Assembly: GCA_017416465.1 (NCBI GenBank)
Contig: JAFQCK010000003.1
Coordinates: 57,554 to 121,553 of the forward strand
DNA: 64,000 nt
Direction: 5' to 3'
Origin: Lachnospiraceae bacterium
GTDB taxonomy: Bacteria > Bacillota > Clostridia > Lachnospirales > Lachnospiraceae
The position numbers and the translations under genes are program-made. Every line of letters begins with the position of its first letter. The stretch's first letter is position 1. A model generated the notes under the pieces. That model did not search any database, was not told the origin of the DNA, and saw only the letters and a program-made list of their open reading frames with translations. Below are positions 1,790 to 20,430 of the stretch, one piece after another.

Positions 1790-1807
1790 ATTATTTATTT
1801 AGTTATT
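1790..1807 (-). promoter_or_regulatory. 18-bp repeated element, copy 1 (leftward)
   Basis: On the minus strand it reads AATAACTAAATAAATAAT, one mismatch from the consensus AATAAC[CT]AAnnAAATAAC. It overlaps the stop codon of the upstream gene and lies just before the ribosome binding site of the gene at 1574-1777. Confidence 0.55.
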
Positions 1808-2185
1808 TTTCAATTCTTCCGCCCTCATTGCTTCAAGCTCTTCAACAAGCGGATTAAAAACTGAATAATCCAAACCGTAATATTTTAACCATTTGTTCAG
1901 ATGGTCAAGTGTTGCGTATGTTACAGCCGGATAAAATGTATTTTCTATTGCCTGATTAGCAAAACGCAAAAACGCTTCACAAATCAAACTTTTGTTTGTT
2001 CGTTTTTTGTTTGTCAACAGATAATGCAGCTTGCTTCTTCCGTTGCCTCCGTTGGTGTGTCTGTATTCAATATCAAACACATTAAAAATCATATCGTTTA
2101 AATAACCGGTATTTATTTTGTTTGTTGCAGTATTTAAAAAATAACTGTTTAACGCTTCAAATGTTTTATTTTTATTTGTCATCAT
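1799..2185 (-). CDS. Hypothetical phage protein, 128 aa
   Basis: The N-terminus is Asn/Thr-rich (MMTNKNKTFEALNSYF) with GGGCGG as ribosome binding site; ATG 2182 is an equally good start. It includes HTNGGNGRSKLHYLL and a C-terminal acidic helix. No domain is recognised. Third or fourth gene of the leftward module, with its stop codon inside a repeat element. Confidence 0.58.
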   Translation of the reverse strand: MMTNKNKTFEALNSYFLNTATNKINTGYLNDMIFNVFDIEYRHTNGGNGRSKLHYLLTNKKRTNKSLICEAFLRFANQAIENTFYPAVTYATLDHLNKWLKYYGLDYSVFNPLVEELEAMRAEELKNN

Positions 2186-2217
2186 TTTGTTTTTCCGCCC
2201 TTCTTTTATTCTGTTGT

Positions 2218-2502
2218 TTAATATTTATCTGATTGAAATTTATAATATTTTTCATGTTCTAAAGCCTGATAATATGCTTCATTTAATTTATAATAACATT
2301 CGGCTTTTGTTCCTAAACTGAAGCTTATTTGTTTATAGCCTTCGTGCGTGTGTTTCTTTTCTGCATTATTATAAAAGTGTAAAATATAACTATATTTTCC
2401 ATACGCAAAATAAGGTTTGACTTCCGCAATAAATCCGGCTTCATTCAGATTTTCTTCAATTTCTGCCGCCCTGCATCGTAAATTATTTATTGTAACATTC
2501 AT
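2218..2502 (-). CDS. Hypothetical phage protein, 94 aa
   Basis: The start is placed at ATG 2502 (MNVTINNLRCRAAEI), which has GGAGG about 10 bases upstream; the longer frame up to 2577 would lack a ribosome binding site and overlap the gene upstream. Regularly spaced aromatic residues suggest a small alpha/beta fold. Unrecognised. Confidence 0.57.
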   Translation of the reverse strand: MNVTINNLRCRAAEIEENLNEAGFIAEVKPYFAYGKYSYILHFYNNAEKKHTHEGYKQISFSLGTKAECYYKLNEAYYQALEHEKYYKFQSDKY

Positions 2503-2518
2503 TTTGTTATATCCTCCG

Positions 2519-2860
2519 TTAGTTGTTTTTAAATACTGAATAAAATTCTGAATAATAAACTTCAAGCATAAAATCAAATGATAAACTAATCAATTTGTAA
2601 ATTTCATCAATATAATTATTAATATCTAATTCATTTGATTTAATTGACATTAAAGCTAATTTAATAACGGCTTCAGGGTATTTATGAAAAATTGCTCTAT
2701 TGTCTGCTTCATATATTGTAATTGTATTAAAAAAATCATTGATTGAATCATTAAAATTATTTTCGTTTACTTCGTCATAGTCGCCGCCGAGGACTCCCTT
2801 CTCGGTGTACTCATTGATTAAATAATTTTTGTATTCTCTAATTTCATTTGTCATAAACAT
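2519..2860 (-). CDS. Hypothetical phage protein, 113 aa
   Basis: ATG 2860 follows an AGAGAGG box; a second ATG six bases downstream is possible. It is an acidic, helix-rich protein with no recognised domain. The 18-bp element at 2887-2904 lies 26 bases upstream of the start, which suggests separate control within the leftward module. Confidence 0.57.
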   Translation of the reverse strand: MFMTNEIREYKNYLINEYTEKGVLGGDYDEVNENNFNDSINDFFNTITIYEADNRAIFHKYPEAVIKLALMSIKSNELDINNYIDEIYKLISLSFDFMLEVYYSEFYSVFKNN

Positions 2861-2886
2861 AATATAAAACCTCTCTTTATTGTACT

Positions 2887-2904
2887 GTTATTTTATTAGT
2901 TATT
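2887..2904 (-). promoter_or_regulatory. 18-bp repeated element, copy 2 (leftward)
   Basis: On the minus strand it reads AATAACTAATAAAATAAC. It lies between the 54-aa gene at 2904-3068 (touching its stop codon) and the gene at 2519-2860, 26 bases before the latter's ATG. Confidence 0.6.
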
Positions 2905-3068
2905 CAACAATAATAATATACTTCGTTTAATATTTCAGAATAAATTATATTATCTTCGTTTGTTACCTGCTGATTATAAATACAGTATTGAATACCACTA
3001 TAAAAAGATATACAGAGCATTAATATAATACTTGTAATTATAACCGTTATTTTGATATACTTTTTCAT
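2904..3068 (-). CDS. Small membrane protein, 54 aa
   Basis: A short gene with ATG at 3068, GAGGT ribosome binding site and TGA at 2904. After MKKYIK comes a hydrophobic stretch of about 16 residues (ITVIITSIILMLCISF), typical of one membrane helix or an uncleaved signal anchor, then an acidic, Tyr-rich tail. A repeat element at 3081-3098 lies 12 bases upstream. Function unknown; the size and layout fit a small phage membrane effector. Confidence 0.6.
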   Translation of the reverse strand: MKKYIKITVIITSIILMLCISFYSGIQYCIYNQQVTNEDNIIYSEILNEVYYYC

Positions 3069-3080
3069 TTTGTTACCTCT

Positions 3081-3098
3081 GTTATTTATTTAGTTATT
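3081..3098 (-). promoter_or_regulatory. 18-bp repeated element, copy 3 (leftward)
   Basis: On the minus strand it reads AATAACTAAATAAATAAC. It overlaps the stop codon of 3090-3419 and sits 12 bases upstream of the ATG of the 54-aa membrane protein. Confidence 0.62.
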
Positions 3099-3419
3099 TG
3101 CATTTAAATAATGAGCCGGGAACATTCGCCCTATATCTTCATAACTTGACAATATATGATATTTACTATTTATATAATTTTCAAATCCTGCCCGGAGGCA
3201 TGAAGCAATAGCATCAATATTATATTTATTGTTGTTACCGTATAATTTTATCATATCATTAATTGCACGGTGTATAATTGCATCCTTCTGAAACTGCATC
3301 GGCATTTTATTATAGGTATCAATATAATTTTTATAATTGCTGCAAGCTAAATTATATGCAATTTTCTGCTCTGCGGTGCATACCGTTAACGGAATATTTT
3401 TGATTTTATGATATTTCAT
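3090..3419 (-). CDS. Hypothetical phage protein, 109 aa
   Basis: The start is set at ATG 3419 (MKYHKIKNIP) behind GGAGG, not the upstream ATG at 3434. It contains basic and aromatic residues (LACSNYKNYIDTYNKM) and looks helical. Unrecognised. Its stop codon is embedded in a repeat element. Confidence 0.58.
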   Translation of the reverse strand: MKYHKIKNIPLTVCTAEQKIAYNLACSNYKNYIDTYNKMPMQFQKDAIIHRAINDMIKLYGNNNKYNIDAIASCLRAGFENYINSKYHILSSYEDIGRMFPAHYLNANN

Positions 3420-3434
3420 TTTGTTAACCTCCAT

Positions 3435-3674
3435 TTATTCATCATCATCAATAATTAAAATCGTAAATAAAGCACATTTATATATATCGCCTATTTTAGC
3501 AAATTCGCACCATTCAGCAGCATCAGAAGCAATAACATCTGCACAATGTAAAGTGTTATTATCATCAACTAAAAGTGATTTAATGATATTATATACTTTT
3601 TCAAAATCGCCTTCGTTGACATATCGTGTTATTGTACTGAATGAAGGTGTTATTGCATAATAAATTTTTTGCAT
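3435..3674 (-). CDS. Hypothetical phage protein, 79 aa, first gene of leftward module
   Basis: ATG 3674 with a TTAACGGAGG box. The protein ends in an acidic LIIDDDE tail. It is the promoter-proximal gene of the leftward operon, behind the promoter at 3724-3752 and a repeat element at 3696-3713. A first-gene position next to the divergent switch would suit a regulator, but no DNA-binding motif is visible. Function unknown. Confidence 0.58.
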   Translation of the reverse strand: MQKIYYAITPSFSTITRYVNEGDFEKVYNIIKSLLVDDNNTLHCADVIASDAAEWCEFAKIGDIYKCALFTILIIDDDE

Positions 3675-3695
3675 TTTGTGAAGCCTCCGTTAACT

Positions 3696-3713
3696 GTTAT
3701 TTAATGGGTTATT
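3696..3713 (-). promoter_or_regulatory. 18-bp repeated element, copy 4 (leftward)
   Basis: On the minus strand it reads AATAACCCATTAAATAAC. It starts about 10 bases downstream of the -10 box of the leftward promoter, so it covers the likely transcription start region, a usual place for an operator. Confidence 0.62.
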
Positions 3714-3723
3714 CATTGATATA

Positions 3724-3752
3724 ATAATAGCATATATTTTATGATTTGTCAA
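3724..3752 (-). promoter_or_regulatory. Leftward sigma-70-type promoter
   Basis: On the minus strand a perfect TTGACA (3752-3747) is separated by 17 bp from TATTAT (3729-3724). It faces the small-gene module at 3674 and leftward. Repeat elements flank it on both sides (3783-3800 and 3696-3713). Confidence 0.8.
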
Positions 3753-3782
3753 GTGTTTTTTTAAAAGTTTTTTATATTTTTT

Positions 3783-3800
3783 GTTATTTTTTTAGTTATT
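3783..3800 (-). promoter_or_regulatory. 18-bp repeated element, copy 5 (leftward)
   Basis: On the minus strand it reads AATAACTAAAAAAATAAC. It lies about 30 bp upstream of the -35 box of the leftward promoter. Confidence 0.58.
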
Positions 3801-4253
3801 TCTTTTGATTGAAAAATTGCTTTTATTAACGATTGATAAATGATGAATATATCAGAATACAGAAGTTTTTAACCTGCTGCAATATATAACAATAGTACAG
3901 AGCAGAAAACCGGATTATATAACCGTTTATTTATGTACGCTTTTTTATCTTTTGCAGACATAAAAACAACCGGTATATCAAAAGTATAAATAAATAGTGA
4001 TACCGGGTATATTTACATTTTTAAACCGGTTTATTTTTTTGATTTTTCGTAAAGTACATCTGCTCAAACCCTACACGCCCAACCCCCATCGATTCAATCG
4101 TTTTCCATTTCGTCAAACTCCCCTTATACCGCCCCTATTTAACATTTTGCAATATTTCATTTTAAGTCCCCTGAACCCTACCCTATTTAGCAAACACACG
4201 ATAAATCACACCTTTCAAATTAAAATCAATCAGATAGTAAAAAATTTTTGATA
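3801..4253. other. Long intergenic control region, C-rich on the plus strand
   Basis: No credible gene. The left half holds several short CCGG-centred boxes (near 3910, 3969, 4005 and 4023), some embedded in near-palindromes such as AAACCGGTTT. From about 4065 to 4195 the plus strand is strongly C-rich and G-poor (runs such as CAACCCCCATC), unlike its AT-rich surroundings. With divergent promoters on both sides it could be a replication origin or a regulator landing platform; nothing proves either. Confidence 0.4.
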
Positions 4254-4271
4254 AATAGCCAAAAAAATAAC
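4254..4271 (+). promoter_or_regulatory. 18-bp repeated element, copy 6 (rightward, variant)
   Basis: Reads AATAGCCAAAAAAATAAC, differing from the consensus by a G in the first half. It ends 9 bp before the -35 box of the rightward promoter at 4281. Confidence 0.55.
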
Positions 4272-4280
4272 ATATTATTA

Positions 4281-4309
4281 TTGACATTTGAGTATATTTA
4301 GTATATAAT
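4281..4309 (+). promoter_or_regulatory. Rightward sigma-70-type promoter for the recombinase-fold gene
   Basis: TTGACA at 4281-4286, a 17-bp spacer and TATAAT at 4304-4309 make a consensus promoter. Transcription would start near 4317 and run into the gene at 4399, passing another repeat element at 4357-4374. Confidence 0.85.
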
Positions 4310-4356
4310 ATAAGAGTAAAAACTATTGATATTTCAACGGTTTTTACTAATGGGTG

Positions 4357-4374
4357 TATAACCAAAAAAATAAC
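4357..4374 (+). promoter_or_regulatory. 18-bp repeated element, copy 7 (rightward)
   Basis: Reads TATAACCAAAAAAATAAC. It lies in the leader of the recombinase-fold gene, 24 bases before its ATG. Confidence 0.6.
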
Positions 4375-4398
4375 TTTTTATTAAAGGAGTAGACGATA

Positions 4399-5145
4399 AT
4401 GGATAATGCAGCAAGAATTTGTAATGATGCAACTATTATTTCTTTCGCACCTTATCTTCAGCGTAAGCAGGAACAGAACAAATTTAAAGTAGCAGCTCCG
4501 ATTATTGATGATAAATATTCAGAAACAAAGGTTAACCTGAAAACTCCGGTTGACCCCCTTACTAAAGAGGAATATAAAAAAATAAGAGATTACTTCTTTA
4601 ATAATGATGATTATTTTAAAACAATGCCAACTAACAGGCGAAATTATCTTTATGTTGTTCTTTCCATTAATTTAATGAGACGGTGCGGAGATATGGTAAA
4701 GCTGCGTGTATGTGATGTTCTTAACGAGGACGGTACTTTCAAGGAGCATATTATATTTAACCATGAAGAAAAGACCGGCAAGAGAGCAGTTGTATTACTG
4801 AACAGCAAATGTAAAGAAGCATTAACAGAATACTTTAATTTTATTAAGGTATATAATATGTCAGACTGGCTGTTTCAAAATTATAAGACGGGTGAATCTA
4901 TGACGGTGGGCGGTATGCGTAAGATGCTTCAGCGTACTTGTGAAAAACTCAATTTGGACATTCATATTGGAACACACTCTTTGAGAAAAACAATTCCGCA
5001 TATAGCTATTTCTAACAGTACAAATACCGAGGACGAAGTAATTGTGTCACAGCTTCTTAATCACGGCAGTATAAAAACTACCTATCATTATATTAAAAGA
5101 AACCAGCAGGAACTTGACGAGTTCGTGGAAAATAATGCTATTTAA
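4399..5145 (+). CDS. Tyrosine recombinase-fold protein (integrase or recombinase-fold repressor)
   Basis: The 248-aa protein carries the catalytic domain of the phage integrase/XerD family from about residue 50. Visible residues: R95 (in RRCGD), K125 (EKTGK), H193 and R196 (HSLRK), H222 (LNHGS) and the nucleophile Y231, so the active site looks complete. An arm- or core-binding domain of usual size is missing; the first 45 residues are short and unlike it. It is the first gene behind a consensus promoter and sits in a control region full of 18-bp elements. It may be an integrase or resolvase. Alternatively, as for MrpR of SPbeta (a recombinase-fold repressor), it may bind the dispersed element; intact catalytic residues argue for real recombinase activity. 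Confidence 0.82.
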   Translation: MDNAARICNDATIISFAPYLQRKQEQNKFKVAAPIIDDKYSETKVNLKTPVDPLTKEEYKKIRDYFFNNDDYFKTMPTNRRNYLYVVLSINLMRRCGDMVKLRVCDVLNEDGTFKEHIIFNHEEKTGKRAVVLLNSKCKEALTEYFNFIKVYNMSDWLFQNYKTGESMTVGGMRKMLQRTCEKLNLDIHIGTHSLRKTIPHIAISNSTNTEDEVIVSQLLNHGSIKTTYHYIKRNQQELDEFVENNAI

Positions 5146-5189
5146 ACTACTATAAATAGTTATACAATAGGGAAAGTAGATTATATTGT

Positions 5190-5368
5190 AACTTATTTAT
5201 GCTATCGCATAAACAAGTTATTATCAGCTTGCTACGCAACCTGATAAACTTAAAGTATTTATTGATAACGAATCAGTATGAAAAATAGCTATTCTAATGG
5301 CAGGTGTGACACTTTCCAAGTAGTATTACTATATAATAGTAGGGCGAAACAGATGTACCAAACGCCCT
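5190..5368 (+). other. Structured non-coding region with three inverted repeats
   Basis: The 287-bp gap after the recombinase gene holds a hairpin at 5190-5219 (13-base arms around TATC), a second at 5221-5247 (TTATCAG/CTGATAA arms) and a third at 5341-5368 (AGGGCG/CGCCCT). The first two are back to back, without a clear U-tract. They could be recombinase sites, a structured leader of the next gene, or weak terminators. No convincing gene is present. Confidence 0.5.
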
Positions 5369-5432
5369 TAATATAATAGATAACAATAAAGGCAAAAAGG
5401 TACACGCCTTATAGCGTAGAAAAATCGTTAGT

Positions 5433-6572
5433 TTGGGCGAAAATAGCAAAATCGAAGGGAATGATTTATTGCAAATAGAAAAGCGAAAGTATGACGAAAA
5501 AGAACTTGTATATATGTTATGTACTGATTCTCAAATAAAATCTTATGAGCAGAAAGATAGGTTTGTGGGCGGTAAACAACGGTCAATATTTTTAGATAAA
5601 TTATCACAGTATTGCGAATATGAATTTAATCAGCAAGAACGAACTTATTTAATCACAGATTTGTTTGAAGTTCCGAAAACTATCGCACAGGCTCGATTAC
5701 ACAAAGGAATATATCAATTTCTTGCACCGCTAATCCTCAATGAGATGATAAATAATCATGACGAGAATCATAAGGCAAGATTGACCATTTTTGATTTGGC
5801 AAAAAAAATAGCTATGGTTAATTCTAACTACGATTATATAAAATATAATATTGAACAGTCAGGCAAAGAACTTGAAATTCCTTTTTATGAGTTGTATGAA
5901 TATTTTAATAAAACAGATTTACAAATTGATGAATATTTGCGAAGGTGTATTAAATATTTAGCAAGCGAAAATTGTGTTATCGCAAATGAAGTTCATGTTA
6001 TTCAAACGGCTGAAATCGGTGTTGATATAAATAAGAATACGGTTGCTATTGTTAAAGAAAAAGATGTTCATACGGCTACTGACGAAGAAATGGATTTGTA
6101 TGCTCGTTTAGTTGAACAAGCAAGTAAAATATCCGGAGCAAGTACCAACTATGAACAATGGTATGGTAAAAACTCCAAAAACTTTAAAAAAGCATTAAAA
6201 CAATTGTTAAACGAAAACGGTATTGATTATGTTTGTCGTGGTTTTGAAATGTGGTATGTTGATTTAGATAAATGTAGACGTATGCTTGAGGATTATTCAG
6301 TAATACCATTATCAGAAAGGACAAAAATGCTTGGAGAACTTTTTAAATTGATTATAGACGAAAATGCAGAAAAAAGAGCTTCAAAAAATCCTCTTATTGA
6401 TAATGGTTATGTTGAACATTTTAAAACACTTTCTTCTTTAACGATTTTAAATAATTCTGAAGATGTGAGAAAAAAGTTTAAATATTGGAAATCTCAACCT
6501 GAAAGATTAATGAATAAGGCAAACAATTTTAACGTTGAATATACTGAAAAAACAAAAGTGGAGGATGTATAA
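5433..6572 (+). CDS. Hypothetical phage protein, up to 379 aa
   Basis: Unrecognised, largely helical protein. The frame opens with TTG at 5433, but TTG at 5469 behind GAAGGGA is a better supported start (367 aa). A segment around EQWYGKNSKNFKKALKQL is followed by a basic C-terminus. It is immediately followed by the UvrD/Rep-like helicase, whose ribosome binding site lies inside its end, so both are probably made together; a replication role is plausible but unproven. Confidence 0.6.
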   Translation: MGENSKIEGNDLLQIEKRKYDEKELVYMLCTDSQIKSYEQKDRFVGGKQRSIFLDKLSQYCEYEFNQQERTYLITDLFEVPKTIAQARLHKGIYQFLAPLILNEMINNHDENHKARLTIFDLAKKIAMVNSNYDYIKYNIEQSGKELEIPFYELYEYFNKTDLQIDEYLRRCIKYLASENCVIANEVHVIQTAEIGVDINKNTVAIVKEKDVHTATDEEMDLYARLVEQASKISGASTNYEQWYGKNSKNFKKALKQLLNENGIDYVCRGFEMWYVDLDKCRRMLEDYSVIPLSERTKMLGELFKLIIDENAEKRASKNPLIDNGYVEHFKTLSSLTILNNSEDVRKKFKYWKSQPERLMNKANNFNVEYTEKTKVEDV

Positions 6573-6573
6573 T

Positions 6574-8394
6574 TTGGAATTTAATGATAATCAAAAAGAA
6601 GCTATAAATTTTCATAAGGGGTGTTGTAATGTTATTGCTTCGGCAGGTTCGGGAAAGACTGGTGTTTTAGTTCATAGAATTAAAAATCTTGTTGAAAATT
6701 ATAATGTTGACCCACAGAGAATATTAGCTATTACTTTTAGTAAAAAAGCAAAAGAAAATATGGTGGAACGGTTAGAAAAATTACTGCCGGGTGTTTATAA
6801 TAATCTACATATTGACACTTTTCATTCATTTGGATATTCAATTATTCGCAAATTTAATAGAATTACATATAAAATTCTTGATGCGGATTGGAAAAAGAAT
6901 AAAATAATTGAAGATATTTATAAGGATATGTTTAAAGTTAGAGAAGTTGATGGCTGCACAATAGCAGAACTTGTTTCTTATATTTCTTATAAAAAGAATC
7001 TTCTTGAATTTCCAAACAAGAATTCCAGTGATATAAATGAGCAGATTTATTATCAATATGAAAAATTTAAAAAAGAAAATTATAATATTGATTTTGACGA
7101 TATGCTTACAATGTGTTATGAGATTTTAAGCAGTAATGAAAAAGCATTAGTTCATTGCCAAAATCAATTTGAGTTTATTTTGGCGGATGAAATGCAGGAT
7201 ACAAATAAGGCACAGTATGAAATAATTCGTTTAATCGCAGAAAAAAATAAAAACGTGTTTTTTGTAGATGACCCTTTGCAGTGTATTTATCAATGGCGTG
7301 GCTCTGATAATAAATATGTGTTAGATTTTGACTCTGAATGGGAAAATCCTAAAACGATTAATCTTAATTGTAATTATCGTAGCAGTAGAGATATAGTTAC
7401 TTTGGCAAATAAATTTGCTACAACAATTCCTGAATCCCAGCATAAGAATTATGTTGAAAGCATATCCAACAAAGATAATATAGAGAGTCCACATTATAAA
7501 ATATATGTCGATGAAAAAGATGAAGCAAATCAAATTGCAAAAGTTATTGAAGAATTAGTTGTAGTTAACGATTGTAAATATAGTGATATTGCAATTTTAG
7601 CAAGAACAAATGCTCAGCTTGTTAATTTTGAATCTGCAATGCACAAAAAATCAATTCCCTACTATATTGTCGATGGTGCTGCATTTGTTGAGAGAAAAGA
7701 AATAAAACTAATATTGTCTTATTTAAAACTTTCAAGTGATTTGAATGATGAAGAATCATTTAATTATATTTATAATCGTCCAAATCGTTTTTTGGGAAAG
7801 CAATTTTTGAACGATGTAAAAAAAGAAGCAATCAGACAAAATATTTCAATGTATTTTGCTATGCATACACCTGTTGCTAAAAATTTTAAATATTCTTTTG
7901 GCGTAAGAGAAATAGCAGATGTCATCAACACATTGCGAAACAAAAAAGATTGGTCAGTTAAAGATAAAATAGCTTATCTACGCAATAGACTTAATATAGA
8001 TGCATATGTATCTGGCGAGGTTTCAGACGATAACAATTCATTAGACAAAATAGATAATTTAAATACGCTTGAAAATATAGCAGAAGATTATATATCTACT
8101 GAAGAATTTGTAGATTATATGTCTAAACTTGTAGTTAAAAATAAAGAAACAGATAATGCAGTTAAACTGATGACAATTCATAAATCTAAAGGATTGGAAT
8201 TTCCTGTAGTTTTTATTGTTGGTGTAAATGAAGGACTACTCCCCCATCATAGAAATGAAAATATAGATGAAGAAAGACGATTGATGTATGTTGCAATAAC
8301 GAGAGCTGAAGAAAAATTGTATATATCATCAACATATCAATATGGACATTCAGCAAGTAATCCGAGCGTTTTTATTGATGAATTATTTAGTTGA
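6574..8394 (+). CDS. UvrD/Rep-type superfamily 1 DNA helicase
   Basis: The 606-aa protein shows the SF1A helicase motifs in order: Q-motif (NDNQKEAINF), Walker A (SAGSGKT), motif Ia (AITFSKKA), motif II (ILADEMQDTN), motif III (CIYQWRGSD), motif IV/V (MTIHKSKGLEFPVVF) and motif VI (YVAITRAEEKLY). Members unwind DNA 3' to 5' using ATP, in repair or rolling-circle/phage replication. The TTG start at 6574 is chosen because GGAGG (6560-6564) is correctly spaced and the previous gene stops at 6572. Length is slightly below bacterial UvrD/PcrA. A copy of the 18-bp element follows its stop. Confidence 0.9.
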   Translation: MEFNDNQKEAINFHKGCCNVIASAGSGKTGVLVHRIKNLVENYNVDPQRILAITFSKKAKENMVERLEKLLPGVYNNLHIDTFHSFGYSIIRKFNRITYKILDADWKKNKIIEDIYKDMFKVREVDGCTIAELVSYISYKKNLLEFPNKNSSDINEQIYYQYEKFKKENYNIDFDDMLTMCYEILSSNEKALVHCQNQFEFILADEMQDTNKAQYEIIRLIAEKNKNVFFVDDPLQCIYQWRGSDNKYVLDFDSEWENPKTINLNCNYRSSRDIVTLANKFATTIPESQHKNYVESISNKDNIESPHYKIYVDEKDEANQIAKVIEELVVVNDCKYSDIAILARTNAQLVNFESAMHKKSIPYYIVDGAAFVERKEIKLILSYLKLSSDLNDEESFNYIYNRPNRFLGKQFLNDVKKEAIRQNISMYFAMHTPVAKNFKYSFGVREIADVINTLRNKKDWSVKDKIAYLRNRLNIDAYVSGEVSDDNNSLDKIDNLNTLENIAEDYISTEEFVDYMSKLVVKNKETDNAVKLMTIHKSKGLEFPVVFIVGVNEGLLPHHRNENIDEERRLMYVAITRAEEKLYISSTYQYGHSASNPSVFIDELFS

Positions 8395-8411
8395 ATAACC
8401 AATAAAATAAC
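8394..8411 (+). promoter_or_regulatory. 18-bp repeated element, copy 8 (rightward)
   Basis: Reads AATAACCAATAAAATAAC, overlapping the last base of the helicase stop codon and ending 20 bases before the ATG of the next gene at 8432. Confidence 0.62.
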
Positions 8412-8431
8412 ATTTTAAGAAAGGAATGAAA

Positions 8432-8632
8432 ATGGATAATAAAAACTTAAAAATTTGCCCACACAATTGTTACTGGTATGAGCAATGTCGTTGTAAAAAA
8501 ATATGTGAAGATTTTACTCCGATAATTTTATCGGACGATGATATATCCGATGATTTATTAAAAGAACATAAATACGAATGCCGAGAAGAATTTTTTGAAA
8601 TTCTTGAGGAAGAAGAATATTTTGATAATTAA
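8432..8632 (+). CDS. Cys-rich acidic protein, 66 aa
   Basis: Start at ATG 8432 (second ATG) because AAAGGA is then 7 bases upstream. The N-terminal part has Cys residues arranged CPHNC-x5-QCRC-x3-C, a possible metal-binding site; the C-terminus is very acidic (FEILEEEEYFDN). It lies between the helicase and the cysteine desulfurase and could be an acceptor or partner of the latter, which is speculation. Confidence 0.6.
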   Translation: MDNKNLKICPHNCYWYEQCRCKKICEDFTPIILSDDDISDDLLKEHKYECREEFFEILEEEEYFDN

Positions 8633-8654
8633 AAAAGAAAGTAGAGGTAATAAA

Positions 8655-9833
8655 ATGATTTATTTAGATAATGCTGCATCAACTCCGCCTATGAATTATT
8701 TACATAAATTCATAAATGACGATTTAAATTTATATGGCAATCCGAGTAGCATTCATAAAGCAGGTGTAAAGTCTAAAAGAAAGCTCGAAGCTTATAGAAG
8801 AAGTATTTTAAATTTTTTATTTAATACAAACGAAGGTAATGTAATTTTTACATCAGGTGGAACAGAATCAAATAATCTTGCTCTGTTTGGTTTGTCTGAA
8901 TACTTGCAGAGTATTAATAAAACTACAATCATAACATCAAAAATCGAACATTCATCAATTTTTAATGCTTGTAAGGCTTTAGAAAAAAGAGGTTTTAAAG
9001 TTATATATATGCCTGTTTGTTATGATGGTAGAGTTGATATTGAAGAGCTTGATAAAACTATGCAGGAAAACAAAGACACTTTGGGACTTGTTTCTATTCA
9101 GATGGTAAATAGTGAAATAGGTACAATTCAGGCATTTAATGATATTGGTGATTTGTGCGAAGAATATGGTGTTCTGTTTCATACGGATGCAGTACAGGCT
9201 GTAGGTCATATTGATATAGATGTAAATAAAAGCAAAATTTCGTTAATGTCAATCAGCGGTCATAAATTTCATGCAATTAAAGGTATAGGTGCTTTATATG
9301 TTCGAGATACAAAAATGTTGAAATCTATTTTGTATGGCGGAGAACAGGAATTTGGTATCCGTCCCGGTACGGAAAATGTATTAGGAGCAGGAACTATGTG
9401 TCATGTTTTGGCTGATGTTTGTAATTGGTTGCAAATTTGTAAACATAACGAATATTGTAAAACACTTCAGCAGAAATTTTTAAACGTTCTGAATGAAACT
9501 ATGAATATTCCTTATCAGATTAATTCAGATGGTGGTATTCCAAACATTATTAATATTAGTATTCCTAAAGTTGAAGGAACGGCTTTGGCTATGTTATTAA
9601 ACGAAAAAGGTATTTGTGTTTCAACTGGTTCTGCTTGTAATTCAAACACTCTTGAACCTTCAAGAGTATTAACTGCAATTGGTCTCCCTGATGAGTTGGC
9701 TTTATGTAGTATTAGAGTTTCGTTTTCGTTTTTAAATACCGTAGATGAATTGGCGAATGCTGCAATTGCAATTGCCACTGAATCGCAGAAACTTTATGAG
9801 GTGTCAAATGTTCAAAAGAATAAAAAGAAATAA
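8655..9833 (+). CDS. Cysteine desulfurase (NifS/IscS class)
   Basis: The 392-aa protein is a complete aminotransferase class V cysteine desulfurase, a PLP enzyme that moves sulfur from L-cysteine to an active-site cysteine as persulfide. Visible: start YLDNAASTPP, ESNNLAL, the PLP lysine K204 in SGHKFHA, RPGTEN, and the catalytic C328 in GSACNS. It starts at ATG 8655 with an AGAGGT box. The class can feed tRNA thiolation, Fe-S assembly or DNA phosphorothioation. None of the dnd/ssp partners are present in the window. Phage copies are uncommon, and the acceptor is unknown. Confidence 0.9.
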   Translation: MIYLDNAASTPPMNYLHKFINDDLNLYGNPSSIHKAGVKSKRKLEAYRRSILNFLFNTNEGNVIFTSGGTESNNLALFGLSEYLQSINKTTIITSKIEHSSIFNACKALEKRGFKVIYMPVCYDGRVDIEELDKTMQENKDTLGLVSIQMVNSEIGTIQAFNDIGDLCEEYGVLFHTDAVQAVGHIDIDVNKSKISLMSISGHKFHAIKGIGALYVRDTKMLKSILYGGEQEFGIRPGTENVLGAGTMCHVLADVCNWLQICKHNEYCKTLQQKFLNVLNETMNIPYQINSDGGIPNIINISIPKVEGTALAMLLNEKGICVSTGSACNSNTLEPSRVLTAIGLPDELALCSIRVSFSFLNTVDELANAAIAIATESQKLYEVSNVQKNKKK

Positions 9834-9996: not shown

Positions 9997-10008
9997 GGAG
10001 TGATATAA

Positions 10009-12089: not shown

Positions 12090-12702
12090 TAAGAAATTAA
12101 CTGGTAATGAAATTATAAAAGTTTTAGAATGTTGCAGCAAAAGAGCAATTTATGAAGATTGTCCTGTTGGATGTCCGATGTATCAGTTTGATGGTGATTG
12201 TTTTGATTTGATACAAAAAGATATTCTTGAATTTATTAACAATTTACAAGCTGAAAATGAAGCCCTTATCGCAGGGCAGGAAACATTGCAAGCTCATATC
12301 TCAAATCAGAACAAAGAGATAAGCAGGCTTACTCTTCTTGCAAAGCTTGGAAAAAAGAGAGCTGACGATTACAGAGCTATGCGAGATAGAGCCTTGAAAG
12401 CGGAAGCAGAGCTTGAAAAGCTAAAAGAAGCAAGTGAAGAGGCTGTTAGTTGTTTTCATCGTATGGAGAGTCTTTATAACATTAAGTGTATGGAACTAAA
12501 GGTTGCCAAAGCCGAAGCAACCAAAGAGTTTGCGGAGAGGTTGAATACAACACTTGCAGGATATGAAATTTGTTTTATTGAAAATCAAGATTGGAGTGCC
12601 AGAAATACAATTCAGCAAATTTCAGCCGAAATTTACAACCTTGTAAAAGAAATGACAGAGCCTTCGCTTCTTGACAAGAAATTCGGGGGCGATGCGGTAT
12701 GA
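12082..12702 (+). CDS. Coiled-coil phage protein, 206 aa
   Basis: An N-terminal Cys-rich module (LECCSKRAIYEDCPVGCPM) is followed by a coiled coil from about residue 55 to 150 (LQAENEALIAGQETLQ and onwards). Phage proteins with this layout are common and uncharacterised. Overlaps both neighbours by a few bases. Confidence 0.65.
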   Translation: MVDKKLTGNEIIKVLECCSKRAIYEDCPVGCPMYQFDGDCFDLIQKDILEFINNLQAENEALIAGQETLQAHISNQNKEISRLTLLAKLGKKRADDYRAMRDRALKAEAELEKLKEASEEAVSCFHRMESLYNIKCMELKVAKAEATKEFAERLNTTLAGYEICFIENQDWSARNTIQQISAEIYNLVKEMTEPSLLDKKFGGDAV

Positions 12703-13268
12703 AGAAAATCCCTACATTATTCGAGAGAATTTTTGAGAATCACAAAGTTGTCGGAATAAAAGCCGAAGCTCATGAAGGTATAGAATGGGTGTTTAAAGGT
12801 GAGGGGTATGCAACCGAAAAGATTGACGGGGCTTGCTGTGCGATAATCGATGGAAAGTTTTATAAGAGATACGATGCGAAGAACGGCAAGAAAGCTCCCG
12901 AAGGTGCGATACCTTGTTGCGACCCCGACCCGATTACCGGACATCATCCGCACTGGGTAAGGGTGGACCCGTTTAACCCGGCAGACAAATGGTTTGTTGA
13001 AGCTTATAAAAACACACCTTTGAAGGGCGATGCTGACGGAACATATGAAGCGGTAGGCGTACATTTCAACGGAAACCCGTACCATTTAACAGGCGATACG
13101 CTTATTCCGCACGGACATCTTCTTATTGACCCGATAAGAAGCTTTGAAGGAATAAAGGACTATTTGAAAGAGCATTACATTGAGGGCATCGTTTTTTGGA
13201 AAAACGGTGAACCTCAATGCAAAATTAAAAGGTCGGACTTCGGCTTTAAGTGGGGTGATGCGGAATGA
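12699..13268 (+). CDS. RNA ligase-like nucleotidyltransferase (DUF5565/RLIG1-like)
   Basis: The 189-aa protein shows the ligase/capping nucleotidyltransferase motif I KxDG with K41 (TEKIDG) as probable AMP-accepting lysine, a later motif EGIVFWK and a terminal CKIKRSDFGFKW that fits motif V. The arrangement matches the DUF5565 family, whose human member C12orf29 (RLIG1) is an RNA ligase (family knowledge). It could repair tRNAs cut by host anti-phage nucleases. Start ATG overlaps the previous stop (ATGA). The gene is noticeably more GC-rich than its neighbours, which suggests separate acquisition. Confidence 0.75.
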   Translation: MKKIPTLFERIFENHKVVGIKAEAHEGIEWVFKGEGYATEKIDGACCAIIDGKFYKRYDAKNGKKAPEGAIPCCDPDPITGHHPHWVRVDPFNPADKWFVEAYKNTPLKGDADGTYEAVGVHFNGNPYHLTGDTLIPHGHLLIDPIRSFEGIKDYLKEHYIEGIVFWKNGEPQCKIKRSDFGFKWGDAE

Positions 13269-13782: not shown

Positions 13783-13787
13783 CAACA

Positions 13788-13982: not shown

Positions 13983-13984
13983 CA

Positions 13985-14080
13985 ATGGCTGATTTGATTT
14001 TATGCCTTATCATTCTTACTGTGCCGTGGTTTATTGCGATTATTAACGCCAACTATAAAGGAGAGTGTGACAATGGCTGA
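13985..14080 (+). CDS. Very small membrane protein, 31 aa
   Basis: ATG 13985 sits 8 bases after GGAGG (GGAGGTGTTAAC) and the frame ends at TGA 14080, overlapping the next gene. Residues 4-21 (LILCLIILTVPWFIAII) form one membrane helix. Good ribosome binding site and coupling support it being expressed. Function unknown. Confidence 0.5.
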   Translation: MADLILCLIILTVPWFIAIINANYKGECDNG

Positions 14081-15105: not shown

Positions 15106-15461
15106 ATTGTAAAATATGTGGAAAAGAAATTGCCGAAAGCAGATATATAACAGATGTTTTATGCAGTGAAAATTGTTTTGAAAAGAATTTTTGGAATGAG
15201 ATTATTGCTGAAAGAGATAAATACATAATTATAAACAATACTTGTTATCGTGATGGTGGAAAAACGCCCGGCAATTATTTTAAAGGATTTGGTGGCAGAC
15301 GATTCTATATAAGATTTTTTGATGGCAGAGAAATCACAACTGATAATTTATGGTGTCAAGGTGATATTCCTGAAGAATATCAGAACACATTAAAAAATGA
15401 AGCCGAATTTTATTATCCGGAAGAAAAATTAATAAAAACTAAAGGCGGTGCAAATCATTAA
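15102..15461 (+). CDS. Zinc-finger-headed phage protein, 119 aa
   Basis: Begins MNCKICGKEIAES and has a second pair at VLCSENC, making an N-terminal treble-clef-like zinc finger; the rest is beta-rich. ATG 15102 chosen for spacing from AAAGGAAA. Its end overlaps the polymerase-like gene by 14 bases. Confidence 0.6.
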   Translation: MNCKICGKEIAESRYITDVLCSENCFEKNFWNEIIAERDKYIIINNTCYRDGGKTPGNYFKGFGGRRFYIRFFDGREITTDNLWCQGDIPEEYQNTLKNEAEFYYPEEKLIKTKGGANH

Positions 15462-18351
15462 TACTAATGCAGTCTATATTCCTTCAGTAGATGGAAAAGA
15501 TTTATTTATATCTAATAATTATAAAGATAGTAATTTGAATGGATATAATTTAAAAAATAAAAATGGTGATTATAATTTATCAAAATTCATTAATACTTTA
15601 GATTTCAGTTTGGATTTGATTAAATTACGAGAAATTTATGAAAAAGTTTATAGGCGAAGAGACTTTTCATTTTTTAAAAATCATAAAGAATTCACACAAA
15701 GAGTTATTAATGTCACTTTTAAATATTCAAATAAAGAATTTAACAAATTAAAAACTGATACATATATTAAATTTGGTTATATGGTTTCTGATGAAGATTT
15801 TTCTGATTGTGTCTGTATTCGAGACGGAGAATTGGTTGGTATCCGTATTAATGAAACTGTTAACTCCCCTATTTCAAATGAATTATTGGGTAAATATTTT
15901 TATTTTGATGATGGTGTATATAAGGCTCGAACAAATATTACAACTCTTAATTCTGTTGCAAATATTCGAGAAGAATTATATAAAAACGGCTTTATATGTA
16001 ATGGTATAAAATATGTTCGTTTCAAACGAAGTTCTGGTTCAAGTCGAGTTGGTAAGTGTTTGTTTATTGATGAAAAACTCTATTATAGAATGCACAAATG
16101 GGAAATGTGCGGAATAAAAGTTAAAAATGGAAGTGATATAGATTTAGCTTCATTAGAGCCTTATATAGCTCTTACATTAAGCAGCATTATTGATGTAATT
16201 CACATTAACCCTGAGAATATACTTGTTGTAGATGATTATAGTAGTGTTTTCACTGATAAAGTAGTTGCAACAAGATTAATTGAAGGTCGTTTGCAAACCA
16301 AACCGGAAACTGTTGAAATAACAAATAAGATTTGGGACGGACAATCTCTTATGGATATTAGTCTGTTTGGTAAATATTCAGATAAAGGAATGTTATTGCT
16401 TCGCTCACGATTCTTCAAGTCTTGTTGTTTTAATGCAAATATTCAAAAGTGGTTTGCTGATAATGGAATTACGGATGTTAAACAGTTAAATGGTTATACA
16501 AGAGCAACTAAAATAGAAGATGTTAAGCTAATTACTACGCCAAGTTCTATTAAATATTTAAAGTTTGGCACTTTGGAAAAATGGTTTGATACTATGGAGT
16601 CTGTTTTTGGAATTGTAAAGCACGAAAAACCTACTCACTTTTTTGATGGAAGAATGGTTCAAACTCATTATCAACTTATTAATACATTACAAATGACACC
16701 TAAAGAAGTTGAGCTATTAGTTAAACCATCATTGGATTATGCGAGAATGATAAAAACTGACCCAGCAATTTTAAGACATCAGATAAGTTATTCTTATCAA
16801 TCTCCCGATGATTTTTTTTATACTAAAGCCATAACATCGAAAAATGATATTATATATAAAATGTTGGGTATTAATGATAAATTTGCAAACACAAAATTGT
16901 ATTGTCAATTTAGAGATAATTTAATAAAATCGTTTTTAAAAAATCTTCGTTGTGGACATATTTTAGTAAAAGGAAACTATAGCACATTATGCGGTAATCC
17001 TATTGAAATGCTAAAACAAGCAATCGGAGCATTTGACGGAAGTACGGTTATTGAAACCAATACGGTACATAGTATTAATTTCGATAATAATGTTGATATT
17101 CTTGGTTCGAGGAGTCCTCATGTTACTATAGGTAATATTCTTTTAACTAAAAATATTTTAAGAGAAGAAATAACCAAGTATATGAATCCGACAAGAGAAA
17201 TAATTTATATAAATAGTATATGTGATAATATATTAGAAAGATTATCTGGTGCTGATTTTGATTCCGATACAATTCTTCTTACGGATAATAAAATATTAAT
17301 TAATGCTGCTAAACGAAATTATAATAATTTTCCTGTTCCAACAAAACTGGTTGAGTCTATAAACATAAATAGAAAATATACATCAGAACAACAGGCAGAT
17401 TTAGATGTAAAGACAAGTGTTAATAAGATAGGAGAAATTATTAATTTATCGCAAGAGTTAAATTCTTTATTGTGGAATAGGATAAATAACGGAGAATCAA
17501 TAGATGGTGTCATGGATTTATATTGCGATATTGCTCAATTAGATGTTATGAGTAATTTGGAAATTGACTCTGCAAAAAGAGAAAATCCAGCTAATAACAC
17601 CTATGAATTACAGTGTCTTAAACAAAAATATGACCAAAGAGATAATAAAAATCGACACATTAGACCTTTGTTTTTTAAATATATCGATGGATATAAAGGA
17701 TATAGAGATGATTACCATATTTATCGAGAAGATGATGAGGGTTTTATAAAATGTTGCGTAATTGATAGATATGGTGAAGCTCTTCAATATAAAAAAGATT
17801 CGGAAGATATAATACATATTGAAAGAGGCAGAATGTCATATCAAAAATACGAAACAGCAATGGATTATTTACAATTAAGTATCAATAAGTTTAGAACTTG
17901 TCGTTTATCCAAAAAAGAATTATTAACATTTTCAGAATGTTTAATATCAATAAATGATTTATGTGGATATATAAAATATCCACAAGTGGAAAAAATTATT
18001 GAAACTATTCGAGATTGTAAACATAGAATATCGGTTATTTGGAGCAACGAAAACGAATTGTCAAATAGAAAAAAGAGAGAAGTTGCACAAGATATTCGTC
18101 AAGAATGTATTGATTATATTTCCTCTTTAATAATTGGGCAAAAAACTATGCGTTATTTATTGAGTTTGATTGATAAAAAAGAATATTCTGATATTTCTAA
18201 ATTTCTATTTGATACATTGTTTGGTACAGCAAATAATTCTTTTTATGAATTAATTGAAAGTAGTAAAAATAACATATATCGTCTTGAAGAAGCGAAAAAT
18301 GGAAATATTAAAATATATGATTTTAGTTATAATAAAATAATTAATGATTAA
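15448..18351 (+). CDS. YonO-like two-barrel RNA polymerase (predicted)
   Basis: The 967-aa protein carries features of the single-chain polymerases with two double-psi beta barrels (YonO of SPbeta, distant kin of QDE-1 and of bacterial beta/beta'). D603-F-D-S-D607 fits the metal-binding DxDxD signature; about 45 residues earlier lies GSRSPHVTIGN, and a lysine-containing VKGNYSTLCGNP segment lies near residues 510-522, matching the first barrel. The canonical DFDGD has S in place of G. A GTG start at 15448 follows AAAGG closely, so the exact start is unsure. Expected role: transcription of phage late genes by a polymerase independent of host sigma. It lies just before the phosphoesterase/HU/terminase cluster, as yonO does in SPbeta. 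Confidence 0.75.
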   Translation: MQIINTNAVYIPSVDGKDLFISNNYKDSNLNGYNLKNKNGDYNLSKFINTLDFSLDLIKLREIYEKVYRRRDFSFFKNHKEFTQRVINVTFKYSNKEFNKLKTDTYIKFGYMVSDEDFSDCVCIRDGELVGIRINETVNSPISNELLGKYFYFDDGVYKARTNITTLNSVANIREELYKNGFICNGIKYVRFKRSSGSSRVGKCLFIDEKLYYRMHKWEMCGIKVKNGSDIDLASLEPYIALTLSSIIDVIHINPENILVVDDYSSVFTDKVVATRLIEGRLQTKPETVEITNKIWDGQSLMDISLFGKYSDKGMLLLRSRFFKSCCFNANIQKWFADNGITDVKQLNGYTRATKIEDVKLITTPSSIKYLKFGTLEKWFDTMESVFGIVKHEKPTHFFDGRMVQTHYQLINTLQMTPKEVELLVKPSLDYARMIKTDPAILRHQISYSYQSPDDFFYTKAITSKNDIIYKMLGINDKFANTKLYCQFRDNLIKSFLKNLRCGHILVKGNYSTLCGNPIEMLKQAIGAFDGSTVIETNTVHSINFDNNVDILGSRSPHVTIGNILLTKNILREEITKYMNPTREIIYINSICDNILERLSGADFDSDTILLTDNKILINAAKRNYNNFPVPTKLVESININRKYTSEQQADLDVKTSVNKIGEIINLSQELNSLLWNRINNGESIDGVMDLYCDIAQLDVMSNLEIDSAKRENPANNTYELQCLKQKYDQRDNKNRHIRPLFFKYIDGYKGYRDDYHIYREDDEGFIKCCVIDRYGEALQYKKDSEDIIHIERGRMSYQKYETAMDYLQLSINKFRTCRLSKKELLTFSECLISINDLCGYIKYPQVEKIIETIRDCKHRISVIWSNENELSNRKKREVAQDIRQECIDYISSLIIGQKTMRYLLSLIDKKEYSDISKFLFDTLFGTANNSFYELIESSKNNIYRLEEAKNGNIKIYDFSYNKIIND

Positions 18352-18495
18352 AACTTACAATTTTTAGCGGTTTTCGGTCACTTTCAATAAATTATAAACT
18401 TTTAAAATGTGCGATAAATCGTTATTATTAAAAGTTAATTAAAAAGGTCATAAGGGAATAGAACTTCCCAAATTTAATGTAAAGGAATGAAATAA

Positions 18496-18702
18496 GTGAT
18501 TTTAATTACCAAGCAGGAATCAGAGGTAATAAGAGCAAGATATCCAAAGGCAGATATTGTGAGAACTTGTATTCAGAAAAGTAAACGTCACAAGTATTAT
18601 ATGCCGGAAAGAGTTTGTTTTTTAAACTTGATTAAGGATACAAATGCAAAAGCCGCTGAAATTCTTAATGAAAAGAAGAATCAGCGTGAATTTTCTTACT
18701 AA
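18496..18702 (+). CDS. Hypothetical phage protein, 68 aa
   Basis: GTG start (MILITKQESEVIRARYP) behind AAAGGAATG. Basic, with a QKSKRHKYYMPE stretch. This layout is seen in many Firmicutes phages (pattern recognition, no function known). Its stop overlaps a repeat element. The 144 bp before it hold no gene. Confidence 0.62.
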   Translation: MILITKQESEVIRARYPKADIVRTCIQKSKRHKYYMPERVCFLNLIKDTNAKAAEILNEKKNQREFSY

Positions 18703-18718
18703 TAACCAAGTAAATAAC
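18701..18718 (+). promoter_or_regulatory. 18-bp repeated element, copy 9 (rightward)
   Basis: Reads AATAACCAAGTAAATAAC, identical to the copy at 20407. It ends 21 bases before the ATG at 18740. No good -35/-10 pair accompanies it. Confidence 0.65.
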
Positions 18719-18739
18719 TTTTGAAGGGAGTGATATACG

Positions 18740-18925
18740 ATGATTAATAATTTTTTGTGCGATAAGTGTTCTCATTATTCGGTATGTGAAAAATTAAAGC
18801 CTCTTATGAAATTTCACGATTCTGCCAAGAAGGATTTGCTGATTACCCTTAATATGGAAGAATGTTTGGATTTTGAATCTGATACTACAGATAGAGATTC
18901 GGAGGTAGATACAGATGATAAATAA
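18740..18925 (+). CDS. Cys-containing acidic protein, 61 aa
   Basis: ATG 18740 with GAAGGGAG. Starts MINNFLCDKCSHYSVCEKL, a possible metal-binding start, then a very acidic tail (DTTDRDSEVDTDDK). Directly downstream of a repeat element and 14 bases before the phosphoesterase gene. Confidence 0.58.
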   Translation: MINNFLCDKCSHYSVCEKLKPLMKFHDSAKKDLLITLNMEECLDFESDTTDRDSEVDTDDK

Positions 18926-18939
18926 ATGGGGGCGATTTT

Positions 18940-19911
18940 ATGGTAGAAATTCATAAGCTGCCCAATGAAACCGATTTTGAATATAAGCTTCGGCTTTGTA
19001 AAGCAAAGATTAATAAAGAAATAGATTTAGAGTGGCAAGAAATTGTAGATTTATTAGGATTGGATGTTCATTATGACCACTTGCGAAAAACAGCATATGG
19101 TTTAATTGAGTATGATAATTATTTACATAGCGAAGAAGGCGTTGCAACTCGAATTTTATCTATTTCAGATTTACATATTCCATTTCAAAAACCTATTGAG
19201 ACTTTTAAAGATTATCAAAATAGAGTAGATATTTTGCAGATTAATGGTGATGTTAGTGATTGTCAGGCGATTTCTAAATTTCCCAAGGTTTATAGAATCA
19301 GTCCAATGGAAGAGTTGATAAAAACAAGACAATATTTGATTGAACTTATTGAATATTTAAAGCCAAAATCAGTTATTGTTAATTATGGCAATCACGATTT
19401 AAGATTTCAAAACTATTTTGCCCGTACTTTGGATACTGATTTGCTTGAACTTATGCCTAAAACATCATTAGAATTGATTTTCGAGGATGGATTTAGACAT
19501 TATGATAAGAGAGAAAAAACTAAAATTGAATATGAAGCTCTTAATAAAGTTTTAACCAATGTTGATATTCAATATATAGATAATTGGTATTGTAAAATTG
19601 GCAATACAATTTTTTGTCATCCTCTTGCTTTTTCAGGTCAGCCTATGAAAACATCGGAAAATGCAATGAATTTCTTTCGTAATGAAGGATTTCAGTTTAA
19701 TTCTTTAGTTATGGCACACACACATCGAATTGGAGAATATTCTATAGGTAATACAACTTTGTATGAACAGGGTTGTTGTTGCGAAACAAAACAAAATAAT
19801 TATAGTGATGGTAGATTGACAAAATCTCAAAAAGAAGGGTTTATTTATATTTCGCAAGATTCTAATGGGGATATTATTAGAAATAAAACATTTTTAGTAC
19901 AATTAAATTAA
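18940..19911 (+). CDS. Calcineurin-like metallophosphoesterase
   Basis: The 323-aa protein shows the dimetal phosphoesterase motifs: SDLH (motif I), NGDVSD (II), YGNHD (III), CHP (IV) and AHTH (V). Such enzymes hydrolyse phosphodiesters or phosphomonoesters of nucleic acids or nucleotides; the substrate is not predictable here. An N-terminal 70-residue extension is helical. SPbeta carries a comparable gene near its polymerase and terminase (family knowledge). ATG 18940 follows a GGGGGCG box. Confidence 0.85.
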   Translation: MVEIHKLPNETDFEYKLRLCKAKINKEIDLEWQEIVDLLGLDVHYDHLRKTAYGLIEYDNYLHSEEGVATRILSISDLHIPFQKPIETFKDYQNRVDILQINGDVSDCQAISKFPKVYRISPMEELIKTRQYLIELIEYLKPKSVIVNYGNHDLRFQNYFARTLDTDLLELMPKTSLELIFEDGFRHYDKREKTKIEYEALNKVLTNVDIQYIDNWYCKIGNTIFCHPLAFSGQPMKTSENAMNFFRNEGFQFNSLVMAHTHRIGEYSIGNTTLYEQGCCCETKQNNYSDGRLTKSQKEGFIYISQDSNGDIIRNKTFLVQLN

Positions 19912-19945
19912 ATGAGATGTAAAAACAATATGATAAGAGGTATAA

Positions 19946-20227
19946 ATGAATAGACAAGAGCTGATTAAAAGGATTTCTGAACAAACCGGAGAATATCAGT
20001 GTGATGTTAAGAGAGTTATTGAATCTTATGAAGATAATATAATTTCAGAATTATTGAACGGTGGAAATGTTCATCTTCATGGATTTATAACATTATTTGT
20101 AAAAGAGAGTTCGGAAAAAAATTATATAAATCCTATGACAAAACAACAAAAGATTTTACCTCCTACTAAAAAAATAAGAGTAAAAGTAAGTGATAAAATC
20201 AATAGACAAATTGAAGATAATTGTTAA
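19946..20227 (+). CDS. HU-like DNA-binding protein
   Basis: The 93-aa protein matches HU/IHF: N-terminal helices (MNRQELIKRISEQTG), GGNVHLHGFITLFVKE, then a beta-arm in which the usual RNPQTG is YINPMTKQ. HU-like proteins bend and coat DNA. It ends the unit before the tRNA cluster; SPbeta also has an HU-like gene beside its polymerase. Confidence 0.85.
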   Translation: MNRQELIKRISEQTGEYQCDVKRVIESYEDNIISELLNGGNVHLHGFITLFVKESSEKNYINPMTKQQKILPPTKKIRVKVSDKINRQIEDNC

Positions 20228-20245
20228 GGATTAAAAAAGACTGAA

Positions 20246-20277
20246 TGTGTAGCAAAAGTATTTTTGCTTTTGCTACA
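20246..20277 (+). terminator. Strong hairpin after the HU gene
   Basis: Arms GTGTAGCAAAAG and CTTTTGCTACAC are perfectly complementary. A U-tract is lacking, so it may be an RNA-stabilising or processing hairpin just upstream of tRNA-Gln rather than a classic terminator. Confidence 0.55.
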
Positions 20278-20287
20278 CTGAATATAC

Positions 20288-20362
20288 TGGGGCGTTGCCA
20301 AGCGGTAAGGCACGGGACTTTGACTCCCGCACTCGCTGGTTCAAATCCAGCCGTCCCAGCCA
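20288..20362 (+). tRNA. tRNA-Gln (UUG)
   Basis: Acceptor arms TGGGGCG/CGTCCCA, anticodon loop CTTTGAC (anticodon TTG), T-loop TTCAAAT and encoded CCA. 75 bases. First gene of the phage tRNA cluster. Confidence 0.93.
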
Positions 20363-20380
20363 GATTTTTTAAAAAAACTA

Positions 20381-20409
20381 TTGACTTCTAAAAATTATTG
20401 ATGTATAAT
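20381..20409 (+). promoter_or_regulatory. Sigma-70-type promoter inside the tRNA cluster
   Basis: TTGACT at 20381-20386, 17-bp spacer, TATAAT at 20404-20409. The -10 box runs directly into the 18-bp element (20407-20424), so a protein bound there would block this promoter. Confidence 0.75.
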
Positions 20410-20424
20410 AACCAAGTAAATAAC
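20407..20424 (+). promoter_or_regulatory. 18-bp repeated element, copy 10, fused to a -10 box
   Basis: Reads AATAACCAAGTAAATAAC, sharing its first three bases with the -10 TATAAT. The next gene is tRNA-Gly at 20431, so the element cannot be a translation signal. Confidence 0.68.
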
Positions 20425-20430
20425 AGTTAT

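Follow-up and report, generated by a model that had tools for sequence, protein, structure and literature searches.

Which protein reads a short sequence element that recurs in front of many genes of a Lachnospiraceae prophage, and to what effect? The stretch analyzed here (the window) comprises 64,000 nucleotides and corresponds to C11:57554-121553, where C11 is a 121,553-bp contig of a 3.7-Mb genome assembled in 172 contigs; positions without this prefix are those of the window. A first-pass annotation of the window reported ten copies of an 18-bp element and offered two explanations, operators of the phage repressor or promoters of the phage-encoded RNA polymerase. Since phage SPβ possesses a recombinase-fold repressor, MrpR, with multiple SPBRE elements, the former was taken as the first hypothesis. 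Our results argue for it: with a probability of about 85%, the element is the predicted operator at which an MrpR-family protein, encoded in the same prophage at C11:25822-26787, acts as the master repressor of the phage.

Searches with the consensus AATAACYAANNAAATAAC at no more than one mismatch returned exactly the ten copies reported, on the strands reported, against 0.04 expected from dinucleotide shuffles; at up to three mismatches the window gives 24 matches against 8.7 expected. The minus-strand copies are located at 1790-1807 (one mismatch; within a leftward operon, overlapping the stop of the upstream open reading frame (ORF), 12 bp from the next start), 2887-2904 (exact, 26 bp from the start), 3081-3098 (exact, 12 bp), 3696-3713 (21 bp, just downstream of the sigma-70-like promoter TTGACA-N17-TATTAT of the leftward operon, 3724-3752, minus strand), and 3783-3800 (upstream of the same promoter). 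On the plus strand, a copy at 4254-4271 lies just upstream of the -35 box of the rightward promoter TTGACA-N17-TATAAT (4281-4309, plus strand), and further copies occur at 4357-4374 (24 bp before the recombinase-fold gene), 8394-8411 (exact, 20 bp), 18701-18718 (exact, 21 bp), and 20407-20424. Seven of the ten are thus 12-26 bp away from a start, in agreement with the annotation; the remaining ones are 3783 (108 bp), 4254 (127 bp), and 20407, which precedes a tRNA-Gly gene and, as noted at first pass, overlaps the perfect -10 box of its plus-strand promoter (20381-20409; TTGACT at 20381-20386, N17, TATAAT at 20404-20409). The statement that all copies are intergenic is nearly right, except that at 1790, 2887, 3081, 8394, and 18701 the final 1-9 bases of the preceding ORF fall within the copy.

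A scan of the whole prophage, which the annotation had recommended, shows that the window holds only about half of the set: at up to one mismatch there are 21 copies in C11 (from 6035 to 77977) and two in the rest of the 3.7-Mb genome, all 13 exact copies of the genome are in C11, and the reversed pattern, used as a control, gives six matches in the genome. The apparent confinement of the element to the left 21 kb is therefore an effect of where the window begins, as the element runs on leftward to C11:6035. Its absence from the structural genes stands, with no copy at this threshold to the right of 20424, i.e. in the part with the portal and other virion genes.

None of the 20 related records searched, which include fragments, has the exact element (up to one mismatch), because the relatives carry versions of their own. 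Unanchored repeat searches revealed that near relatives hold an element that differs from this one yet can be aligned with it, and that usually makes up their top repeat family, e.g. ATAACAAGAAATACAA in L043, ATAACGGTTTAATCAA in L038, and ATAACCAGAAATGCAA, ATAACCATAAATRCAA, and ATAACAACATTTATAAT in other loci. It is the top family in the window and in L035, L038, L043, L045, L081, L083, L084, L087, L091, and L096, the second in L086, and lower in L082 and L089; in L094 it is outside the top four families, yet a pattern scan gave ten copies. No firm version could be assigned to L082 (five copies) and L089 (one anchored copy). In the more distant L046, L047, L049, and L051 the de novo search found no such element among the top six families, three versions tried at up to two mismatches gave no match in L046-L049, L051, and L052, and MT835469 has eight copies against nine in the control. 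The versions have ATAAC in common and vary in the next 12 positions; in the counts for long records and in the site-by-site comparison ATAAC was imposed as an anchor, so its constancy there is built in, and the unanchored searches found it too.

Placement, promoters, and co-divergence were analyzed in eight phages represented by at least 60 kb (C11, G115, G100, G105, G107, G101, G116, and G097), leaving out G098, MT835469, SPβ, L138, L139, L142, and L145. The anchored search gave 22 (C11), 18, 20, 33, 21, 22, 26, and 22 copies per phage; the C11 set shares 18 copies with the 21 of the pattern search, misses C11:45746, 59343 (window 1790), and 61807 (window 4254), and adds C11:7461, 23721, 45400, and 52613, three of which are inside genes. 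Among the 184 sites, with genes called by simple ORF rules, 157 are intergenic and 27 lie in frames, some of the latter surely by chance. Where both neighboring genes have the same direction, 126 of 132 sites point with transcription and six against it, which bears out the claimed orientation with the downstream gene, with the proviso that related phages have sites in common, so these are not independent events; another 18 sites lie between divergent and seven between convergent genes. In C11 the median distance from the site to the downstream start is 26 bp. A good sigma-70 promoter (at least 10 of 12 matches, close to the site) accompanies 47 of the 184 sites; the opposite strand gives nine of 184, and control positions ahead of ribosome-binding sites 0-6%. 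In 23 of these 47, the site takes up the whole 17-bp spacer, beginning with the base next to the -35 hexamer; the site at C11:42104 fills the spacer shifted by one base. The other 137 sites have no good promoter nearby, as had been claimed for most copies, and many of them separate two genes of one operon, immediately ahead of the ribosome-binding site.

Certain arrangements recur between phages. The recombinase gene is preceded by two sites 99-103 bp apart, one upstream of the -35 box and one before the ribosome-binding site, in C11, L038, L045, and L081. In L038, L043, and L045 one site occupies a promoter spacer and another stands directly before the same tRNA-Glu gene; C11 instead has just one, which lies at the -10 box of the tRNA-Gly promoter.

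Phages that are closely related and have different versions of the element indicate which protein has changed with it. Among 62 genes of G100 that are shared with G115 (the prophage of L083) and with phages of the same version as G100, the median identity is 85% in both comparisons, and a single gene stands out, with 45% identity to G115 and 78% to the same-version phages. Its orthologue in C11 is the 321-aa frame at C11:25822-26787, 31 kb to the left of the window. In the eight phages this family ranks first of 45 in how closely its divergence follows that of the site (r 0.84, partial r 0.83), which agrees with the proposal of operators of the phage repressor; we rely on the rank instead of a P value because the sample of eight phages is small and its pairwise values depend on one another. 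The next ranks are taken by a small Cys-rich protein (r 0.62, partial 0.67) and by the 222-aa neighbor of the 321-aa frame (r 0.66, partial 0.62).

The protein encoded at C11:25822-26787 matches phrog_5830, the MrpR family, over nearly its full length (1.4e-5), and with a profile of six homologues it comes first among 525 ORFs, with a value of 96.7 in a profile comparison; two weaker tests for membership in the MrpR family did not detect it. The relationship is distant (17% identity between MrpR and the G100 orthologue). In the alignment the first Arg and the His of HxxR are replaced, while the Arg of HxxR is kept, and a model of an orthologue restricted to residues 1-112, the N-terminal domain, is grouped by fold search with integrase core-binding domains. 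One site lies directly upstream of the gene's own promoter and another just downstream of the gene, which adjoins an XRE/ImmA-like pair; a phmmer search of C11 found no AimR homologue. The 222-aa protein (C11:26852-27520; L026:6852-7520, minus strand), which adjoins the repressor gene and co-diverges with the sites, may be a partner or antagonist of the repressor.

The alternative that the element is a promoter of the YonO-like RNA polymerase accounts for sites that mostly point with the downstream gene and usually have no good sigma-70 promoter, and PMC5467207 leaves the YonO promoter sequence open. The polymerase in question (15448-18351, plus strand; phrog_8308), a single chain of 967 aa with a YonN-like protein encoded nearby, is a distant relative of SPβ YonO, and among 14 control genomes its PHROG was matched in Bacillus subtilis only. 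Its divergence, however, shows no correlation with that of the sites (r 0.03, partial -0.21); L041-L043 and L050 differ in version from L044/L045 although their polymerases are 90% identical, and L039 and L044/L045 have one version in common with polymerases only 67% identical. Moreover, many sites are inside or upstream of sigma-70 promoters, and a YonO-type promoter would be expected before late genes, as YonO serves these in SPβ (PMC5467207), whereas the structural genes of the window have no copy. We consider this half of the original proposal very improbable. Judging from L039, L044, and L045, the polymerase gene has seemingly been exchanged between phages separately from the genes on its left. 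The first-pass annotation had further named the tyrosine-recombinase-fold protein at 4399-5145 (plus strand) as a binder. It is of the appropriate fold class, there is a site on either side of its promoter, and in the first 13 phages compared its divergence looked compatible with the version. Nevertheless, the recombinase of L083 (Flintibacter muris) is 98% identical to that of L045 and the sites differ (that genome contains 16 matches to the L083 version at up to one mismatch, and its prophage contig accounts for 15); the correlation is also lower (r 0.50, partial 0.13), and the best PHROG is phrog_216, matched by YopP too, and not that of MrpR. This protein, in which the catalytic residues are kept, is thus probably the wrong one, i.e. 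a highly unlikely reader of the site, and the L083 copy also speaks against it as the counterpart of MrpR. It is unlikely to be the integrase either, given the 520-aa frame with a serine-recombinase domain (C11:5469-5927) at the left end of the prophage, which is probably the prophage integrase. The 379-aa neighbor at 5433-6572 was rejected as a reader as well: L083 and L038 differ in their sites but have this protein at 99% identity (r 0.49, partial 0.12).

For the two families that rank next to the repressor, the correlations themselves are the argument. That the 222-aa protein reads the site, alone or in a complex with the MrpR relative, would also fit its position directly beside the repressor gene; it matches no DNA-binding family in PHROGs or Pfam, and in G100 it is 64% identical to G115 and 74% to G107, a smaller step than that of the repressor (45 vs 78), so we regard this possibility as unlikely. 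The Cys-rich protein (8426-8632 and orthologues, e.g. G100 49062-49331) could read the site as a zinc finger and has the second-highest partial correlation. Its step is again smaller than that of the repressor (61% identity to G115 vs 75% to G107/G101), it is only 64-91 aa long, no Pfam family was found in the three of three members tried, and the cysteines are the sole reason to expect DNA binding, which makes this reading barely credible. Its orthologues change rapidly from phage to phage and follow the site in part. A second member of this kind, at 18740-18925, is like the one at 8426-8632 located directly behind a predicted repressor site. Finally, the element might be a signal in the mRNA leader, acting on translation or RNA stability, as it often sits just before the ribosome-binding site, at the short median distance given above for C11. 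Against this, copies in the -35/-10 spacer or upstream of the -35 box are not transcribed from that promoter, and in the window, L038, L043, and L045 copies stand directly before tRNA genes. In line with the original judgment that the element is not a translation signal, an mRNA signal appears most improbable.

We read the sites as the likely operators of an MrpR-type repressor, probably doubling as transcription roadblocks; the specificity of the repressor would change in step with them. We infer that the repressor would bind this asymmetric site of 17-18 bp, with a monomer probably grasping it by means of its two domains. Where a site lies in or adjoins a sigma-70 promoter, the bound repressor would block initiation by simple occlusion; where no promoter is recognizable, it may stall RNA polymerase during elongation. 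In this way early and middle genes, including those for the recombinase and the tRNAs of the window as well as the helicase operon, would be kept silent in the lysogen, and induction would release the silenced operons.

Comparison of individual sites illustrates how such a change may look. Between G107 and G115, 15 of 21 sites map to a homologous context (13 distinct G115 partners, as two G107 sites can share one), with flanks 76-95% identical and sites that differ at 4-8 of 17 positions. Between G100 and G107, which have the same version, 16 of 20 sites map, flanks are 75-94% identical, and the sites differ at 0-4 positions. A master repressor with approximately twenty dispersed sites should be hard to change, because every site must follow. 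These phages form a natural series, with the same site places, homologous flanks, and different versions, so that the order and mechanism of the switch (stepwise drift or recombination of many sites) become directly testable, and with them the simultaneous rewiring of an entire set of genetic switches. The series also suggests that immunity groups of such large prophages are predictable from sequence, and it supplies matched repressor-site pairs for structural work on how the fold of MrpR and SroF reads DNA.

Several other features of the prophage deserve mention. The region between the divergent operons (3801-4253) is apparently non-coding, and the relatives likewise show a gap with only small doubtful frames. 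Positions 6535-9833 encode a UvrD-type helicase followed by a class-V aminotransferase resembling cysteine desulfurase, both kept in related phages. An RNA-ligase-1-like protein (12699-13268; Pfam 1.3e-7) and five tRNA genes (20288-21207) occur in one prophage, possibly for tRNA repair. To the left of the window, a Thg1-family (tRNAHis guanylyltransferase) protein is encoded at C11:36193-37053 (L026:16193-17053, minus strand; Pfam 6.5e-32), and a site precedes its gene.

The closest known system is that of SPβ, whose master repressor MrpR (YopR) has a recombinase fold and recognizes SPBRE elements upstream of ten genes (PMC10516654; see also PMC8612738). This protein is reported to be monomeric in solution and to combine a core-binding with a catalytic-like domain (PMC10516654). 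We derived the SPBRE consensus AAATACAAANAATATGTATA from the upstream regions of seven ChAP genes, where it has the gene direction in seven of seven cases; by eye, it fills the promoter spacer at four or five of 15 SPβ places. Both systems have a repressor of phrog_5830, in the present case probably also with the recombinase fold and the loss of catalytic residues known from MrpR, and multiple asymmetric A-rich sites that precede early and middle genes in gene direction, some of them filling a 17-bp spacer. In contrast, the site here is AATAACYAANNAAATAAC and not AAATACAAANAATATGTATA, the repressors are as distant as stated above, there are about twice as many sites (21, compared to ten ChAP peaks in SPβ), most with no good promoter, and the repressor gene lies beside the XRE/ImmA-like pair on a contig where the phmmer search revealed no AimR homologue. 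The SPBRE sequence was not treated as defining the family, because phage phi3T, which has an MrpR homologue, departs from it as well. The phi3T repressor, with 29.5% identity to MrpR, corresponds to PDB entries 9rd5 and 9rgl, which by their titles contain SroF; it differs from the case described here in coming from a Bacillus phage with an element of another sequence. SPBRE, at up to two mismatches, occurs 11 times in 74 kb of SPβ but once in 78 kb of phi3T (L146, i.e. phi3T 50001-99000, and L147), where a directed element near TAAGAATCAAAATAAAAT, present in 34 copies at up to three mismatches, largely replaces it. Seven of the ten ChAP genes have an annotated phi3T orthologue, which we inspected by eye: the TAAGAATCAAAATAAAAT-type element is present at six (yonP, yonT, aimR, yorE, yorZ, and yosX), while yorM keeps SPBRE. 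The literature searched contained no paper on the DNA site of SroF, which is no proof that none exists.

The second parallel is with the stoperators of L5-clade mycobacteriophages, i.e. 20-30 asymmetric sites per phage, directed with transcription and mostly outside promoters. A monomeric repressor equipped with two DNA-binding domains is reported to arrest elongation at these sites, whose sequence differs from phage to phage along with the repressor (PMC6550527, PMC9283540). The phages described here have 18-33 oriented asymmetric sites each, some in promoters and most not, and their motif changes together with the candidate repressor. The proteins, however, are different: the L5-clade repressor comprises a helix-turn-helix and a Stoperator domain and belongs to another phage group, while our candidate groups with MrpR by sequence profile and, in its N-terminal domain, with integrase core-binding domains, and not with the Cluster A repressors. 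Likewise, the elongation block was proposed there from experiments, whereas here the direction and position of the sites suggest, by analogy, that the C11 protein may work in the same way. Tentatively, and with slightly less than even confidence, we propose that MrpR-type repressors constitute a second, independently evolved stoperator system, in which a recombinase-fold monomer on an asymmetric site, one half of which (ATAAC) is fixed and the other changeable, would block initiation and elongation at approximately 20-30 sites per genome, and in which whole prophages, as also between SPβ and phi3T, would switch immunity by changing repressor and sites together while shared genes stay at a median identity of 85%. 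The kind of system is already known from MrpR and SPBRE; what is new here is the lineage, the number and promoterless placement of the sites, and the co-ordinated switching of repressor and sites.

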